Positions 5,296 through 47,576 of a DNA stretch of 47,576 bases are shown here, piece by piece. Position numbers and translations under genes: made by a program. The notes below the pieces were generated by a model, which saw nothing but the letters and a program-made list of their open reading frames with translations, was not told where the DNA came from and searched no databases. This DNA is from Candidatus Gastranaerophilales bacterium. Its GTDB lineage: Bacteria; Cyanobacteriota; Vampirovibrionia; Gastranaerophilales; Gastranaerophilaceae. Positions within the stretch are counted from its first letter, which is position 1; every line of letters begins with the position of its first letter. The DNA is taken from contig CALVAP010000014.1 of assembly GCA_944325625.1 (NCBI GenBank), positions 1 to 47,576 of the forward strand, in the 5' to 3' direction.

Positions 5296-7269
5296 TTAAC
5301 TTTTTTCGTATAAGATATCCGCATAATGTGAAAGTTTAGCTATAAGATTATTCATTTTTCTTTCTTCAATCTCATCTGATTTCTTTCTTACTTGTTTCCA
5401 AGATAACTTCGATTTTAGAGCTGCTGCAAGAATTTCGGGCATATTCAACGCTATTCTGTCTTTTGACTGTTCCTCTAATGTTTTATAATAATCTTCCTTA
5501 AAACAAGGAGTAAGTCGCAGTTTCCAATTTCTGGGGTCTTTTGTCCCCATATAATTGTATACTTTTTTCAAACCGAACAAATCCATAAATGAAATTTGAA
5601 TATTTTTGCCATTAGCAAGCATTTCTACGAATTTATACTTTAAACGTTCTCGGGGATCATTTTTTACACCCAAAACTATAGGTTCTCGCTGCTTATTAGT
5701 CCAACCAGGATACAAAAATCCTGCAAGATAAAGCGGGTTAAACGCCTCATTAGACGGTCTTCCCCAGTTTTCTTCAGGAGGAATATACTTTAACTCGTTA
5801 TCTATTTTTGTTGACAATGGCGGATCGTCATGTGAGCCGACCAACCACCAATAATTTGACGGCGCATCTTCTGCCCTTATCCATTTCAGATTTTTTATAC
5901 CGGGCAACTTTAACTCTTTATAGTATTTATTCTTAAATAAATCTGTCTGAGCGCCCAAATCCTCCCATACTACATCTTTTTTATCAACGCCATGCTCTTT
6001 TAAAAGTGGAAGAATTATTTTTTCTATTACTCTGCTAAACTTCCTTTCAGGATCTAAATGTGGAAGATTTGAAATATTTTGTCCGTTTGTAAACACACTA
6101 CCGTCAGCCTCTTTTCTCACACTCGACTTCTCGTAGTACCAAGGATCCAACAAGCCGATAGCATGGTCTATTCTTATCGCTTTTGCATCTTGCAAAACCT
6201 TCTCAAACTTACGTTTGATAAGCTTTCCGCCTTCCAACAACTCGCCTTTTTCATCGAATAATTTTTGCGGATCTATAACCGGAATGTCCCAAACTTGATG
6301 TGAATTATTAGGTCCGCCCCCGGGGCAACCTAGTGCATATCCGCTTAGAAACGCTTCTGGATTTCCCCATACATCTGCCTCTGAAAATCCTACCAGCGCA
6401 TCTCCTATCAAGTTCATTCTTGATGGTGTATCTCTTAGAAATTCCTTCAATTGCTTATTATATATAAACTGTTTGAACTTATACAGTTCTACATCGGGTT
6501 TATACTCTTGTTCAAGTTCAACCTTTCTCGCAACTGCCAAATCATGATTAGGACTGCTTTTATCATTTATGTATAGAATTAAATTCTTATCAATATCATT
6601 CCATTCTGAGCTTTGCTTTCCGTCATATATTCGGCTTTTTATAACATCAAATAAAGCATCCGTTTCAAGCCATTTACCTTCTTCTTGCTTATATGTTTCG
6701 AACTCTGACTTTAACTGCACAACCTCTTTCACACCGTTTCGGGCTCTTGTCTTCATTGAACGGTATGCGTTATACAATAAATTATCATAGGCGTTAAAAG
6801 CTTTTTGAAAATCAGTTTCATCCTCTAGCCTGTCTGTATTTTTAAATGCATTCAATACATTTTCATCAAGAATATTTCCATACTCTCTTGTTGCAAGTTT
6901 GTTCAAATCTATGAAAAGATAATTTGCGGAAAAAGCTCTGCCTCCATAAGGTGAAACGTCTTCCCTTGATATTAAACCGTTTGGTCCCAATTGAATAGAA
7001 TTAAATCCTAACATGGACACAAATTCATTAACATCCTGCGCCTTATCATTAAAGAATGACCCTATATAAAAATCTCTATCTGCAGCAGGAAAACTCGAGC
7101 CATGCAATATTAAGGACAAATTTTTAACCCCGAGAAGTCTTAAAGCATCTTTTGAGGCTTTTGCACAACCAGCTTGCTCCTCCTTTGTCAATGCTCGCCC
7201 AAATGTCGGTTTTTGCAATATATTTCTGTAATAAATACTTTTATTTGTATCTGTTGCGCCTATTCTCAT
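5296..7269 (-). CDS. malQ: 4-alpha-glucanotransferase (GH77, amylomaltase type)
   Basis: Transfers alpha-1,4-glucan segments between maltooligosaccharides in glycogen or maltodextrin metabolism. GH77 signatures appear in order: P-Y-G-G-R-A-F-S-A-N-Y near 110; F-S-E-A-D-V-W-G-N-P-E-A-F; the nucleophile Asp in R-I-D-H-A-I-G-L; the acid/base Glu in E-D-L-G; and the third Asp in G-S-H-D-D-P-P-L. All three catalytic residues are therefore present. At 657 residues it is longer than the roughly 500-residue amylomaltases, with extra helical sequence around 150-280. The first ~28 residues precede the catalytic fold and contain K-P-T-F-G-R-A-L, the short tag also seen in other proteins here. A GAAGGG site precedes the ATG. 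It follows aroE after 86 nt and has no clear terminator before the rpsO promoter. Confidence 0.9.
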   Translation of the reverse strand: MRIGATDTNKSIYYRNILQKPTFGRALTKEEQAGCAKASKDALRLLGVKNLSLILHGSSFPAADRDFYIGSFFNDKAQDVNEFVSMLGFNSIQLGPNGLISREDVSPYGGRAFSANYLFIDLNKLATREYGNILDENVLNAFKNTDRLEDETDFQKAFNAYDNLLYNAYRSMKTRARNGVKEVVQLKSEFETYKQEEGKWLETDALFDVIKSRIYDGKQSSEWNDIDKNLILYINDKSSPNHDLAVARKVELEQEYKPDVELYKFKQFIYNKQLKEFLRDTPSRMNLIGDALVGFSEADVWGNPEAFLSGYALGCPGGGPNNSHQVWDIPVIDPQKLFDEKGELLEGGKLIKRKFEKVLQDAKAIRIDHAIGLLDPWYYEKSSVRKEADGSVFTNGQNISNLPHLDPERKFSRVIEKIILPLLKEHGVDKKDVVWEDLGAQTDLFKNKYYKELKLPGIKNLKWIRAEDAPSNYWWLVGSHDDPPLSTKIDNELKYIPPEENWGRPSNEAFNPLYLAGFLYPGWTNKQREPIVLGVKNDPRERLKYKFVEMLANGKNIQISFMDLFGLKKVYNYMGTKDPRNWKLRLTPCFKEDYYKTLEEQSKDRIALNMPEILAAALKSKLSWKQVRKKSDEIEERKMNNLIAKLSHYADILYEKS

Positions 7270-17069: not shown

Positions 17070-17531
17070 TTATTTTTTGGAATAAGTATCAACAGCCTCA
17101 AGAGCCATATCACCTGCACTATATAACTGAGCACCTGTAATACCTAGTGCGAGAAGTCCGCCAAAACCTGCACCAAACTTCTTGACACAGGGATTTTCCA
17201 TAAGCTTCGCTGCCCAAGAGGTCAACTTAGATGCTTTGAATGCTTTTCCCATATTTGTTGCAAATTCCGTAAGAAGCGAAAGGTTCTTTGCGTTAAGCGC
17301 CCTAGTTCTATTTGCGAGGCTTGAACCTGATACAGCAATATTCTTCATAGTCTTTAGTCTGCTTGCAACAACAGCCGCGCCACCTACGCCACCTGCTGCC
17401 ACTGCTCCACCCACTGCTGCATCCTTGTTATTAACATCAGTCGGATCTGCTATTGTACGTTTTATACCTGTTTCAACTCTTTCTGAAAAACTGTTTCCAA
17501 AATTAGGGGTTGTAATACTTGATACCACCAT
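17070..17531 (-). CDS. Small Gly/Ala-rich protein with N-terminal P-N-F-G tag, unknown function
   Basis: 153 residues, family not recognised. The N-terminus M-V-V-S-S-I-T-T-P-N-F-G-N-S-F carries the short tag seen in other proteins here. Two weakly hydrophobic Gly/Ala segments follow: G-G-A-V-A-A-G-G-V-G-G-A-A-V-V near 42-56 and G-A-G-F-G-G-L-L-A-L-G-I-T-G-A near 119-133. The middle is amphipathic and basic. There is no signal peptide. The first codon overlaps the stop of the upstream gene (TAATG), so both are made from one transcript. Membrane association or self-packing helices are possible readings, not conclusions. Confidence 0.7.
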   Translation of the reverse strand: MVVSSITTPNFGNSFSERVETGIKRTIADPTDVNNKDAAVGGAVAAGGVGGAAVVASRLKTMKNIAVSGSSLANRTRALNAKNLSLLTEFATNMGKAFKASKLTSWAAKLMENPCVKKFGAGFGGLLALGITGAQLYSAGDMALEAVDTYSKK

Positions 17532-18151
17532 TATTCAATCCCCCCATCATTTTTATTCTCCAAGGAAGCGTTGATAGCTGTGGTGGCTGCCGGAACCGCT
17601 ACAAGAACACCTCCAACATTATTTGCCGTGTTGCCTACAGCTGCTCTATCAATTTTATGCTTTTGCGCAAAATCCACCACTTTAGACTTCACCTTTGAGT
17701 AGGCGGAACCAATCTTATCTGACAAATAATTTTTTATCTTACCCAATTTAGATTCAGGATTAATGCCGTTCAATACGTTTTTAGCTTTATCCAAACCAAT
17801 ATTCACATATTTTTTAACAAAATTAGTTGCTTTTTGAGTGTATTTAAAATTTGCAACTTTAGCATAAATACTTTTAAGTGTCTGCGCGCCTTTTGGAGCC
17901 ATTGTTTTGAAAGTCAGGAAGCTCGCAGCTCCTGCGGCAATACCCAAACCCAATGTTCCAACAGAAGATAAGAACTTACTATCTTTATTTTGAGCCAGTC
18001 TTTCTAAATCAGTTCTTTCTTGCTCTAAGTCCAAGAAATCATTTTCCATAATATCTTCTGAACAAAAATCTTCATCATGACCAAACGACGGCTTAGAATT
18101 TAACTGATAAACCGGACGAATTGGCTGACAATTTATAGTCTGTATATTCAT
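17531..18151 (-). CDS. Small protein with N-terminal P-S-F-G tag and hydrophobic segments, unknown function
   Basis: 206 residues, family not recognised. It begins M-N-I-Q-T-I-N and has S-K-P-S-F-G-H-D-E-D at 19-27, then an acidic stretch (about 25-55). A hydrophobic Gly/Ala segment follows near 63-80 (V-G-T-L-G-L-G-I-A-A-G-A-A-S-F-L), then a long Lys-rich amphipathic region and a second hydrophobic segment near 178-195 (V-G-G-V-L-V-A-V-P-A-A). The layout (tag, two hydrophobic patches, basic middle) parallels the downstream 153-residue protein, with which it is co-transcribed and translationally coupled. Start ATG has AAGGAG 8-9 nt upstream. Confidence 0.72.
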   Translation of the reverse strand: MNIQTINCQPIRPVYQLNSKPSFGHDEDFCSEDIMENDFLDLEQERTDLERLAQNKDSKFLSSVGTLGLGIAAGAASFLTFKTMAPKGAQTLKSIYAKVANFKYTQKATNFVKKYVNIGLDKAKNVLNGINPESKLGKIKNYLSDKIGSAYSKVKSKVVDFAQKHKIDRAAVGNTANNVGGVLVAVPAATTAINASLENKNDGGIE

Positions 18152-18323
18152 TTATTTTTGCTCCTTATATTTTGTGCAGCAATTATATAAAGCTTGAAAA
18201 CATATATTTTGCTACATGAGACATAAATTATTAAAAAAAATTTACATACTCTCACTCAGAACAACATACTAACTTAAATTGTTAAAAATTAAAAGCAATT
18301 GTAAAAATTTAGCAATTTTTTGC

Positions 18324-18332
18324 TGTTATAAT
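18324..18332 (+). promoter_or_regulatory. Extended -10 promoter of the M16 peptidase gene
   Basis: TGT directly before a perfect TATAAT (18327-18332). No good -35 is seen, as is usual for extended -10 promoters. Its position rules out the in-frame TTG at 18332 as the start codon. Confidence 0.6.
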
Positions 18333-18364
18333 TGTTTTTAGAGTATACGGGAAGTTATATCACT

Positions 18365-21172
18365 ATGCTGAAAATCAATCAAATTCTTATAAAACCTCCA
18401 CACGTAGAAACGTCTTTTCGAGGAACAACACCTCAGACGTCAGCAACTACAGAAAAAGAAGCAAGTGAAAACACTATTCAACCGAATATAAGTCAACCTA
18501 TAGGCATAAACACTCCGATTGAATACAAATATAGCGGTCAACTAAATATATTGGGCGACCTAACAGCACAAACTTATCGACTGGCGAACGGTCAAAAAAT
18601 AATAATACTACCCAAAAAAGGACCGACAGTGATAAAAACATATGTCAATGCAGGCTCTATGAACGAACCTGATGAGCTAAGAGGCATAAGTCACTATATT
18701 GAGCATAATCTTTTTAATGGAACAAATAACCTCAAAGCCGGCGAATTTTTTAAGAGAGTAAATAGCCTTGGAGCATCAACAAATGCATCAACAAGTTTTT
18801 CGACAACAGATTTCTATATAAGCTCTCAACTTCTAAAGAAAGGTGATTTGGAGGAAAAAATCAAACTCCACTCTGATATGCTCCAAAATCCCGTTTTTGC
18901 ACCGGATATGCTGGATAAAGAACGTGGACCTGTAATATCGGAAATAAGCATGGTGATGGATGAACCTGAAAATACAGCAATCAATCTTGCCATAAAAAAC
19001 CTTTATCAAATTAAAACGAAATCACCTGACTTAATTGCAGGAACAATTGAAAACATCAAAAATGTCACTCGAGAGGACGTTGTAGCATACTATAACACCC
19101 ACTACACCCCAGACAATTTTACCACAATAATATCCGGAGATGTTGACCCGAAAGAAGTTATGAGATACATCTCAAAATACTTCACCAAAAAAAATCCAAC
19201 AAAACCAATGGTAAAAAAATATGAAGAGTTAAATCCAATAGAAACTTCAATAAGGGTTGAGAAAAAATCGGACAAAGCAACAGCAAGTACAACCGTCCTA
19301 GCTTTTGCCGGTCCTGAAAATAACAATACAAAAGATAAACTTATAACAGAAGTATTAACAACCATTCTTACCGGTCATAAGAATGCTCGATTTAACAAAG
19401 CTTTTGAAAAATTATACATAAATGTTGACGCAGGAATAGAAAAAATAGGAAACAAACAAAATGACCAAAAAGCCGTACTTTTTATAACTTCCTGTACCCC
19501 TGACAAAACAGATGAAGCAATAAAAACTATGTATAAGGAGCTTTTCGATATACAAAACGGAAAACTTTCACAAAAAGAACTTGAAACAGCCAAAAAACAT
19601 CTAAGAACCAGCATTCAAGAAGTAAGTGAAAATTCCTACTTATTAAATAACTTGATTGGTTCTGCTTATCTTGACGGTGATATGGATTACCTGGGCGAAT
19701 ATGAAAACATTCTCAACCAAATAACAGTACAAGATATACAAACTGTCGCAAAAAAATATTTTAACCTTAACAAGGCTTCAATCGCAACAGTTTCACCAAG
19801 CGAAAAGGCACTAAAACAAGATAACTCAAAAGTTTCTTTCGGTAACTCAAACGAAAGTGAATTGGTAAAAAAAGAAGCTTATAAAATTGAAAATATAAAA
19901 AACTATCGTCTGCACAACAATGTGGAAATAGTAACTTCTTCCGGCGATTCTGATATTTCGGTGTTCAACCTTGAACTTGGATGTCAACAGCCCGCAGCAG
20001 TTAAACCGGCAGTAGCTGAAATATTGCAAATAATGCTAAATCGTGGTTCAGCCCACAAAGATAAAGAAAACTTCTTTGATGAAGCAGATACAAAAGGGAT
20101 TGAAATTAATTTCAATGCCACTCCGGAAAAAATTACCGCCTGTGCTAAATCAAATTATACAGAAACAGCTGCTGCATTACAGCTTGCAAAAGAAGTCCTT
20201 TTTTCACCTCGATTTAGTAAAGCTGATTTTGACTACGCAAAAGAAGAACTGAAAGAAACAATTACTCAACAACCAAAATCTGCCCAGGCAAATGCAATAG
20301 AAGAACTGTTTAAACATATTCCATACTCTGCCTCAAAAGAAACCTTCCTAAAATCACTGGATGAAGTGACACTGGAAGACGTCAAAGGGTTATACGCATA
20401 TATTATGAAAAACTCGTCTGCAATTTGTACAACAACTGCGCCTTTTAAAGAAAACCCCGAGTTATTAAACGTTTTTACAAGCGAATTAGCAAATAATTTA
20501 CCAAACTTTAAACCGCTAAAAGTGGAAATTTTCAACTCATTTATCCCCGCCTCAAAAAACAAAATTATAGCGCAGGCAGATCAACGAAACCAAGCCGATG
20601 TAGCTAAATGCTATAAATTTAAGACAAATTCTAACATGTCGGATATAGCAAAATTTACGTTACTTAATATAATTTTGGGCGGTAATCCGAATTCAAGACT
20701 GTTTAATGACTTGAGAGAAAGACAAAAATTAGCATATCGAGTACGCTCTAATATTGATTTTATAGGCAATACAGGAGTAATGCAGCTAACAATAAAAACA
20801 ACAACGGATAACCCGCTTGAGGGAGATGACAAAATCTCCAATCTCAACAAAGCACTGGACGGATTTGACGCAAATATTGAAAGAATTTGTAAAGAATATG
20901 TATCAGATGAAGAACTTGAGAGTGCAAAACTTTATCTTAAAACAAAAATTCTTGATGAAGCAGAAACCTCTTCAGGCAGAGTAAAACTTCTTGCCCAGAA
21001 CAAAAACACATTCTATGGATTAAATGCAACTAATATATTTCTGGAAGAAATTGACAATATAACAAAAGAAGACATTATGGCTGCAGCAAATTATATTTTC
21101 CAAAATCCTTCTTTAACCTCGATAGTCGCAAGTCCAAAAACTCTCGATTATTTTAAATCTCATTTAAAATAA
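18365..21172 (+). CDS. M16 family (pitrilysin/insulinase-like) zinc peptidase, two-half form
   Basis: About 935 residues with two M16 units joined in one chain. The first half has the inverted zinc motif H-Y-I-E-H near 110 and the distal Glu region (residues 185-200, G-P-V-I-S-E-I-S). The second half lacks the zinc motif and carries the substrate-side R/Y segment, F-N-D-L-R-E-R-Q-K-L-A-Y-R-V-R near 780. Together they should close as a peptide-degrading clamshell. There is no signal peptide. The N-terminus M-L-K-I-N-Q with T-S-F-R-G-T-T-P near 16-23 resembles the tag of other genes here, and a second K-V-S-F-G-N-S sits in the linker between the halves. ATG 18365 is chosen because the longer reading would start inside the promoter; GGGAAG lies 10 nt upstream. 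Confidence 0.88.
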   Translation: MLKINQILIKPPHVETSFRGTTPQTSATTEKEASENTIQPNISQPIGINTPIEYKYSGQLNILGDLTAQTYRLANGQKIIILPKKGPTVIKTYVNAGSMNEPDELRGISHYIEHNLFNGTNNLKAGEFFKRVNSLGASTNASTSFSTTDFYISSQLLKKGDLEEKIKLHSDMLQNPVFAPDMLDKERGPVISEISMVMDEPENTAINLAIKNLYQIKTKSPDLIAGTIENIKNVTREDVVAYYNTHYTPDNFTTIISGDVDPKEVMRYISKYFTKKNPTKPMVKKYEELNPIETSIRVEKKSDKATASTTVLAFAGPENNNTKDKLITEVLTTILTGHKNARFNKAFEKLYINVDAGIEKIGNKQNDQKAVLFITSCTPDKTDEAIKTMYKELFDIQNGKLSQKELETAKKHLRTSIQEVSENSYLLNNLIGSAYLDGDMDYLGEYENILNQITVQDIQTVAKKYFNLNKASIATVSPSEKALKQDNSKVSFGNSNESELVKKEAYKIENIKNYRLHNNVEIVTSSGDSDISVFNLELGCQQPAAVKPAVAEILQIMLNRGSAHKDKENFFDEADTKGIEINFNATPEKITACAKSNYTETAAALQLAKEVLFSPRFSKADFDYAKEELKETITQQPKSAQANAIEELFKHIPYSASKETFLKSLDEVTLEDVKGLYAYIMKNSSAICTTTAPFKENPELLNVFTSELANNLPNFKPLKVEIFNSFIPASKNKIIAQADQRNQADVAKCYKFKTNSNMSDIAKFTLLNIILGGNPNSRLFNDLRERQKLAYRVRSNIDFIGNTGVMQLTIKTTTDNPLEGDDKISNLNKALDGFDANIERICKEYVSDEELESAKLYLKTKILDEAETSSGRVKLLAQNKNTFYGLNATNIFLEEIDNITKEDIMAAANYIFQNPSLTSIVASPKTLDYFKSHLK

Positions 21173-31287: not shown

Positions 31288-32313
31288 TTGACATCAATAA
31301 GCTTAATAAATAATATAACTTCAAAACAACTCACAGGTACAAGGTCTTTTGCTGCCGATAATAGAAATCGTGCCAATGGAATAAAAGAACAGGGCAACGA
31401 ATTTTTAAAACAAAATGAGTTGGACAAAGCTATTGAATGCTATCTTCGAGCAATCGCAATAGACCCTAATTTTGCAGATGCTTACTTTAATTTGGGTAAA
31501 GCTTATAATCTAAAAAAACAATACAAAGAAGCAGCACAAGCACTTGAAAAAGCAAAAGAACTCAATCCGAACGATATTGAAACAATAATTGTCTTAGGTG
31601 AAAGCTACAAACATAGTGGTCAGTATAATTTTGCAATAAGAAATTTTGAAACGGCATTACAAAAAGATAACACGTCAGATTATGCAAAGCGTAATCTGGA
31701 AGAAACAAAAAACCTTTATCTTGCAGTATTCAACCCTAAAACAGCACTGGAAGAAAAAAAAGCACAAGCACAAAAAAATCTTAATGATGCCATTTCCATT
31801 GCAAAAAACTACCTACCCAAAGGATATCTGAAAGATATGTCAGACCTTGCTATTGCATTTGACACAACAAATGAAATGGGTGGTCGAAGCAACATTGCAC
31901 AATATGAACATGCAAAACGCAAAATTACGATAACCGGTGATTATATATGGGCAAACCCGAGGATTGTCGGAGCTTATCTTGTGCATGAATTTGTACATGC
32001 AAAAGACAATGACCCCTATACCTCTATTACTGAAGAACAAGATGCATACGAAGAGGCAGCAAAATTTTGGACATCAAAGCTTCCTACAGACACACAACCA
32101 CCTGTTAAAGACCCCGAAATGGATTATGTAGCAGAATTATACTTAATCTCACCACAAAAGCTTAAAGACAGAGTTGCTGAAATCTACACACTAAGAGACC
32201 CGCAAATTGCTAAAACATCTCCAAATCATCCTCCACAAAAAATTGCAGCATCATCAAGTCTTTCTGAAGACATAAACGCACAATCCTTGAGAAAATACGA
32301 TATAATTGCATAA
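31288..32313 (+). CDS. TPR-repeat protein fused to a putative zincin (HExxH) domain
   Basis: About 342 residues. Three TPR units (roughly 25-135) with A-I-E-C-Y-L-R-A-I-A-I-D-P and Y-N-F-A-I-R-N-F-E-T-A-L-Q precede a C-terminal domain containing L-V-H-E-F-V-H-A-K-D near 233. This is an HExxH zinc motif, followed by acidic E-E-Q-D-A-Y-E-E-A that could supply a third ligand. Zincin-type peptidase activity is therefore plausible. No signal peptide is seen. The start is taken as TTG 31288 because AAAAGGA lies 9 nt before it; a TTG at 31231 has no such site. The N-terminal T-S-I-S-L-I-N-N ... T-G-T-R-S-F-A-A resembles the start of the tagged proteins here. Convergent with dnaB, 13 nt apart. Confidence 0.78.
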   Translation: MTSISLINNITSKQLTGTRSFAADNRNRANGIKEQGNEFLKQNELDKAIECYLRAIAIDPNFADAYFNLGKAYNLKKQYKEAAQALEKAKELNPNDIETIIVLGESYKHSGQYNFAIRNFETALQKDNTSDYAKRNLEETKNLYLAVFNPKTALEEKKAQAQKNLNDAISIAKNYLPKGYLKDMSDLAIAFDTTNEMGGRSNIAQYEHAKRKITITGDYIWANPRIVGAYLVHEFVHAKDNDPYTSITEEQDAYEEAAKFWTSKLPTDTQPPVKDPEMDYVAELYLISPQKLKDRVAEIYTLRDPQIAKTSPNHPPQKIAASSSLSEDINAQSLRKYDIIA

Positions 32314-47095: not shown

Positions 47096-47576
47096 ATGAA
47101 CATTCAAAGTGTAGATTCTTTTAACGCAGCTGTTGGTCAGCTTAGTGCCATCAAGGGTGACGTTACTGCTGAACAGCTTTCTTCCCTTACGGAATTGTTC
47201 TCTACTCAAATTTGGAACACTTCTGATGCTGAAGGAACTTCAGCTACTCTTGACAGGCAAATTGCTGAACTTCAAGCTCTTTTAGACGAAATTCAAGCTG
47301 ATATCGATGAACTTTACGAACAGCAAAAATCGGCTAATGATGAAATGAACGCACTTGTTAATGATTTGAATCAAGAGTCTTATCAAGCTTCTAAACAAGC
47401 TGATAAAAACATCAAAGAACAGCAAGATTTAGTTTCTGCTGCTACTGACGCTGCCTACAATGCTTATATGAAAGGCGAAATCGAAAAAGAAGAAATCCCT
47501 CTTTACATCGCTAATCAACTTTCTAAAAGCAATGCTCCTGGTGGCGCTAAATTACAAGCTCACCTAGAAGCTATGG
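47096..47576 (+). CDS. Coiled-coil protein of unknown function (3' end beyond window)
   Basis: The first 160 residues are visible; the gene runs off the end. It starts M-N-I-Q-S-V-D-S-F-N-A-A-V-G-Q-L and is followed by an acidic helical stretch with strong coiled-coil character (D-R-Q-I-A-E-L-Q-A-L-L-D-E-I-Q-A-D-I-D-E-L), rich in Gln, Ala and Asp. No signal peptide. A GAGGT site lies 8 nt before the ATG. T-ending Ala/Gly codons (GCT dominating) resemble ftsZ and suggest high expression. The function cannot be read from this fragment. The M-N-I-Q start matches the 206-residue protein at 17531-18151. Confidence 0.8.
   Translation, partial: MNIQSVDSFNAAVGQLSAIKGDVTAEQLSSLTELFSTQIWNTSDAEGTSATLDRQIAELQALLDEIQADIDELYEQQKSANDEMNALVNDLNQESYQASKQADKNIKEQQDLVSAATDAAYNAYMKGEIEKEEIPLYIANQLSKSNAPGGAKLQAHLEAM

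Follow-up and report, generated by a model that had tools for sequence, protein, structure and literature searches.

The stretch of DNA analyzed here (the window; 47,576 nucleotides) is contig 14 of the 1.70-Mb genome of a Candidatus Gastranaerophilales bacterium (genome G000), and several unrelated proteins that it encodes begin with a similar short sequence, which we call the tag. A GH77 4-alpha-glucanotransferase (positions 5296..7269, reverse strand) carries it in residues 1–25 (MRIGATD...QKPTFGR; 7195..7269, reverse), with the motif K20-P-T-F-G-R25. Two proteins of no known family, whose genes share one base, are also tagged: one of 153 residues (17070..17531, reverse) in residues 1–13 (MVVSSITTPNFGN; 17493..17531, reverse; motif T8-P-N-F-G-N13), and one of 206 residues with a Gly/Ala-rich hydrophobic stretch (17531..18151, reverse) in residues 1–25 (MNIQTIN...KPSFGH; 18077..18151, reverse; motif K20-P-S-F-G-H25). 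An M16 peptidase (18368..21172, forward; ATG at 18368) has the tag in residues 1–21 (MLKINQI...ETSFRGT; 18368..18430, forward; T16-S-F-R-G-T21). From its sequence, this peptidase appears to be a naturally fused pair of YfmH-like and YfmF-like subunits, and the linker between the two halves contains an internal copy of the core of the tag, KVSFGN (F491; 19829..19846, forward). The initial annotation of the window had quoted these strings as copies of a P-x-F-G-like motif, and all are present at the residues it gave. It also listed T18-R-S-F-A22 in a TPR protein that it called a zincin; the string exists, as part of a possible degenerate tag (MTSISLINNITSKQLTGTRSFA; 31288..31353, forward; TTG start at 31288), but is weak and falls below the score threshold in both genome scans.

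The tag consists of two parts, an N-terminal lead and a core, separated by a polar gap of variable length. The consensus, M-[KR]-[IV]-[SN]-[GPSA]-I-[NS] for the lead and [PVIT]-[SA]-F-[GKQT]-[RG] for the core, was derived from 39 ortholog N-termini (26 GH77, 13 M16) picked by eye for a visible tag; in a more general form, the lead reads M-[KRQN]-[IV]-x-x-I-[NS] and the core [PVI]-[STA]-F-[GKT]-[GR]. Most GH77 orthologs of relatives, and many of their M16 orthologs, share this N-terminal architecture despite drift in length and sequence. A strict expression detects the tag in 64 of 80 GH77 loci, with the phenylalanine at residue 11–25 (median 16); most of the 16 misses are tagged by eye but lack the domain landmark used. 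In the AlphaFold model of the GH77 enzyme, the predicted local distance difference test score (pLDDT) is below 50 at residues 1–3 and 6–23, and the fold starts near residue 25. Within this predicted-disordered tail, F23 is invariant across 53 aligned GH77 sequences, which were chosen for a tag-like start (72 of the 80 loci have one). Only the phenylalanine is strict; the residue two positions past it varies (R, G, A, S, N, E, K), and some N-termini contain two cores (G070 C3:580033; G008 C11:193201). Thus, the pattern of the initial annotation was too narrow, with proline and glycine proving optional, and it overlooked the M-K-I-x-x-I-N lead. The codons at the conserved tag positions are diverse, which places selection at the protein level. 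For this reason, and because no repeat is found around 18100–18500, a shared DNA element was rejected.

The tag is real and lineage-wide, and it is in all likelihood functional, although simple patterns do not reveal it. The pattern proposed in the initial annotation, [KT]-[PT]-[STN]-F-[GR], is not N-terminally enriched outside the window, and neither is the related P-x-F-[GKRS]: in 346 open reading frames (ORFs; ~400 kb), it occurs only five times in the first 50 residues, three of these being the true window cases. P-x-F-G, [ST]-F-[GKR] and F-x-G show no N-terminal enrichment either. This lack of genome-wide enrichment follows from the way in which ortholog N-termini keep their architecture while length and sequence drift, and the signal emerges only from joint scoring of lead and core, or with a strict core. 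Among the other ORFs of G000, the ortholog-learnt consensus gives 7 of 794 with a score of at least 12, compared to 1.15 expected from shuffled sequences and 0.25 from internal Met positions; one of the seven is a GH77 paralog, from a training family, and one is the 153-residue protein of the window. A broader scan of G000 with alternative starts gives 19 of 877 ORFs scoring at least 12, with none expected from internal anchors. By reading, about 14 of these were judged real and the others to be wrong starts, which makes the internal-anchor control too mild.

Prediction across protein families gives a clear excess. The model trained on M16 peptidases and applied to the 80 GH77 loci finds 49 with a score of at least 8 (4.3 expected) and 35 with at least 10 (1.4 expected from shuffles), and the GH77-trained model finds 10 of 30 M16 loci with at least 10 (0.2 expected). 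In a GNAT-like family not used for any training, scores of at least 12 are reached by 13 of 26 distinct relatives, compared to 0.17 expected. Here 35 matches yielded 30 with loci, of which 26 were scored; those left out are L181, whose ORF was wrong; L188, for which none was found; L198, which shares its ORF with L190; and L197, an untagged GNAT-like paralog of G000 and the third at its locus, whose inclusion gives 13 of 27. In five genomes of the order, the first 60 residues of proteins hold 12 copies of a strict core, [VILP][STA]F[TKGSR]G, and 2 of its mirrored form. Six genomes of the class outside the order show no tag excess. The cross-family and ortholog tests thus support the original suggestion of a lineage-specific short tag that precedes the recognizable domain of non-Sec proteins with unrelated folds: the learnt tag, unlike P-x-F-G-type patterns, exceeds the rate in shuffled sequences, and it is kept in orthologs.

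Within the genus, the genes for the 153-residue protein, the 206-residue protein and the M16 peptidase stay together, so we consider this span a conserved trio. All three are tagged in G000 and G002, and the M16 start of G001 is without a clear tag. The peptidase is matched in 99 of 99 relatives. Strong orthologs of the 153-residue protein are found only within its genus, where their tags read MQVPSISPSFQS and MTISVINVNPTFQG. Orthologs of the 206-residue protein at E ≤ 1e-40 are likewise confined to the genus (2 of 99 relatives), with cores PSFTS (G001) and QAFGN (G002); three further matches exist, two of them near E 1e-4. The nearest named matches of the GH77 enzyme come from gut metagenome-assembled genomes, mostly labeled Candidatus Gastranaerophilales, Melainabacteria, Cyanobacteria or uncultured bacterium, the closest being a goat-colon genome (69%). 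At the end of the window, a coiled-coil-like protein that is cut off there (47096–47576) starts with MNIQSVDSF, a tag-like lead with no core. A scan of viral contigs with one window protein found no relative, and PADLOC gave no match for five proteins.

The tag is found on two GH77 enzymes, a GH13 alpha-amylase, the M16 fusion, TPR proteins and the GNAT-like family, with weaker tags on a 5'-nucleotidase and an HNH protein. Further carriers are many small proteins without a family, some of which have Gly/Ala-rich hydrophobic stretches, like the 153- and 206-residue pair. By inspection, the tagged carriers have no Sec signals, as the tags are polar and lack the stretch of ~8 or more hydrophobic residues that follows the basic start of such signals. 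The alpha-amylase and 5'-nucleotidase families are usually exported. Untagged paralogs in G000 start differently: the M16 paralog has a Sec-type signal that is visibly unlike the tag, and the GH77 paralog has no N-terminal extension. A 217-residue protein beside FliP appears GNAT-like by eye, with no match in Pfam; at this locus (L153 3560–5564; G000:C6:43560–45564) lie three tandem GNAT-like paralogs, two tagged and the third untagged, whose distant relatives are fast-evolving and have mostly retained the tag. The tag probably directs where proteins are sent or attached. Shared by all these carriers, it makes a single co-targeted set, readable from sequence, out of dozens of “hypothetical proteins” in a gut lineage that is widespread but has hardly been cultured.

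Three explanations for such a role were ranked, with export through a second type III gate first, docking close behind and processing third. Our preference for the first is tentative and short of an even chance: the tag would be a non-Sec export signal read by a second, flagellum-independent type III gate. FHIPEP (FlhA/SctV) is present in 94 of 99 relatives, mostly as two full-length kinds (~870 and ~720 bits), and FliP in 94 of 99, also as two kinds, compared to flagellin in 54 of 99. Flagellin is missing from 34 of the 59 relatives of the same family, yet each of these 34 has exactly one FliP, and 33 have a FHIPEP match (one partial), the exception being a genome that is 63% complete. FlhB is found in all 20 flagellin-less genomes covered (19 of the same family and G072). 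In G000, FlgC-, FliE-, FliF-, FliH- and FliI-like genes of the second system are grouped with its FlhA, and FliM/N-, FliO-, FliP-, FliQ- and FliR-like genes lie elsewhere (L007 11690–20006, G000:C6; L204/L205, G000:C2:82714–86784). G008, which has no flagellin, possesses nearly the same set (L155, L206). By NCBIfam models, the parts of this system lie between flagellar and injectisome types: the FliP-like protein passes the cut-offs of both fliP (TIGR01103) and a YscR-subfamily model (NF009438), and the FlhA-, FliQ-, FliR-, FliF- and FliM/N-like proteins fall below the cut-offs of either type.

Two other features of these loci were observed. In the second system, the FliF- and FliH-like genes flank a gene for a conserved protein of ~310–340 residues without a Pfam family (L155 12232–13245; L007 14888–15808). 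Small proteins starting with MGMAASQAR or MTMAAAQAR occur in both genomes (L155 2585–5202, G008:C11; L153 11076–11402, G000:C6); those of G008 are encoded directly upstream of the second FliE/FliF cluster, and the proteins may serve the second system as structural substrates.

The flagellum itself was rejected as the reader, since sixteen flagellin-less genomes have a tagged GH77 enzyme. Two tagged genes adjoin the flagellar FliP in G000, with synteny in G001 and G002. In G008, one tagged gene adjoins FliR/SctT and a second is 1.3 kb from the FliM/N-like gene; distant relatives of the FliR-adjacent gene stand beside SctR in G045 and G058. This adjacency looks to exceed chance, on few independent cases. 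We infer both the export role of the tag and its reading by the second gate from the prediction across families, the conserved residues in a disordered tail, the contrast with Sec-type and untagged paralogs, the gate without flagellin and the gate adjacency. Under this proposal, the tag would be a disordered N-terminal address signal of Gastranaerophilales, made up of a hydrophobic, Asn/Ser-containing lead (M-K-I-x-x-I-N), a spacer and a short linear motif S-F-x-G, that would mark proteins without a Sec signal peptide for a non-Sec route. A second, flagellum-independent export machine may read it, and the likeliest reader would be the second gate (FlhA/SctV, FlhB, FliP/SctR, FliQ and FliR, with FliF, FliH, FliI, FliE and FliM/N-like), which is kept throughout the order. 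Tagged substrates would then be exported to the surface or the outside, where an amylase, glucanotransferase, peptidase and nucleotidase could act.

Several observations weigh against this proposal. The gate adjoining tagged genes in G000 is the flagellar one, and the co-localized cases are few and partly paralogous. The tagged M16 gene lies ~1.2 kb from the second FlhB in two genomes (G013, G017), which is weak evidence. Likely early substrates of the gate (FliE- and FlgC-like) carry no tag. Three genomes of the class outside the order (G083, G086, G096) have the same kind of gate, but in the samples scanned only 1 of 375 ORFs scores at least 12, and this one is likely false. Finally, an N-terminal export signal does not explain the invariant core within the M16 linker.

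The last point speaks for a linear motif rather than for an export signal confined to the N-terminus. The YfmH-like half (residues 71–478, NF047421) and the YfmF-like half (residues 601–910, NF047422), both below the NCBIfam cut-off, are joined by a linker of variable length, and at this joint the motif [VIL]-[STAPN]-F-[TKGSH] recurs. Its phenylalanine is the sole invariant residue of the linker in 30 of 30 orthologs, which confirms the internal copy noticed in the initial annotation as genuine. The core is found in 13 of 15 delimited linkers, compared to 1.6 from shuffling (15 further linkers were not delimited by the expression used), and is missing from two M16 paralogs with Sec-type signals. 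The core therefore has, or once had, a function at the beginning of each M16 half. It is possible, if somewhat doubtful, that S-F-x-G is a docking motif, bound in any disordered region by one lineage-specific partner (a scaffold, envelope protein or chaperone) that would gather otherwise unrelated enzymes in one place, with the lead adding affinity. The linker core and its absence from the Sec-type paralogs, the two cores on some N-termini and the conserved phenylalanine in a predicted-disordered tail would all suit such a partner. However, the lead is bound to an N-terminal position, the strict core shows no enrichment further inside proteins of the same five genomes of the order (14 forward, 19 mirror), and none of 39 relatives has a bacterial microcompartment shell.

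The motif lies at domain joints, in the N-terminal tags as well as in the M16 fusion, as would also be expected if a dedicated protease cleaved within the core to release an N-terminal propeptide and to separate the fusion into YfmH- and YfmF-like subunits. The strict phenylalanine, with a small residue before it and V, I or P two before, would resemble the subsites of a protease. We consider processing unlikely, as the residue two after the phenylalanine is variable and a cleavage site would not need a conserved lead. That the resemblance reflects chance or the usual composition of N-termini, without any shared function, accords with the lack of positional enrichment of loose motif forms but is highly improbable, being contradicted by the held-out tests across families, the mirror control, the invariant linker phenylalanine and the codon diversity.

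Returning to export through the second gate, a broader statement would be that Gastranaerophilales universally run flagellum-independent type III secretion, whose substrates, including enzymes that degrade starch and peptides as well as small proteins that evolve fast, are recognized by the M-K-I-x-x-I-N…S-F-x-G tag; we think this could be so, with the balance somewhat against it. Gastranaerophilales are non-photosynthetic cyanobacteria that are common in animal guts. Should the tag be an export signal, it would show how they act on their surroundings and explain the persistence of flagellar export genes in flagellin-less members; if it is read by a type III machine, their supposed decaying flagellum is a working secretion machine. 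Literature on Gastranaerophilales, Melainabacteria and Vampirovibrio, seen mostly as listings and outside preprints and most subscription journals, yielded no account of the system or the tag, and “type III” occurs neither in the main text of one paper examined nor in the passages of a termite paper (PMC5877343).

Comparison with known systems places the tag as follows. The M16 peptidase has both halves of the YfmF/YfmH pair, which NCBIfam describes by separate models (NF047422, NF047421), whereas here they are fused into a single chain, each half is preceded by a tag, and the scores lie below the curated cut-offs. Encapsulation peptides of microcompartments are also short, linker-joined extensions on unrelated enzymes, but microcompartments were rejected because none of the 39 relatives searched, nor G000, has a shell protein (PF00936). 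The SPI-2 translocation motif is an effector-specific N-terminal motif of one secretion system and, like the tag, is conserved on unrelated proteins, but it differs in sequence, lineage and protein set. Type III secretion signals are short, uncleaved, disordered N-termini that usually show little sequence conservation. The tag resembles those of flagellar and injectisome substrates in its short, disordered, Ser/Asn/Ile/Thr-rich N-terminus, the lack of a Sec signal, the unrelated passengers and the presence of a gate, and differs from them in having a strict-phenylalanine core that is common to several families and recurs inside one protein.

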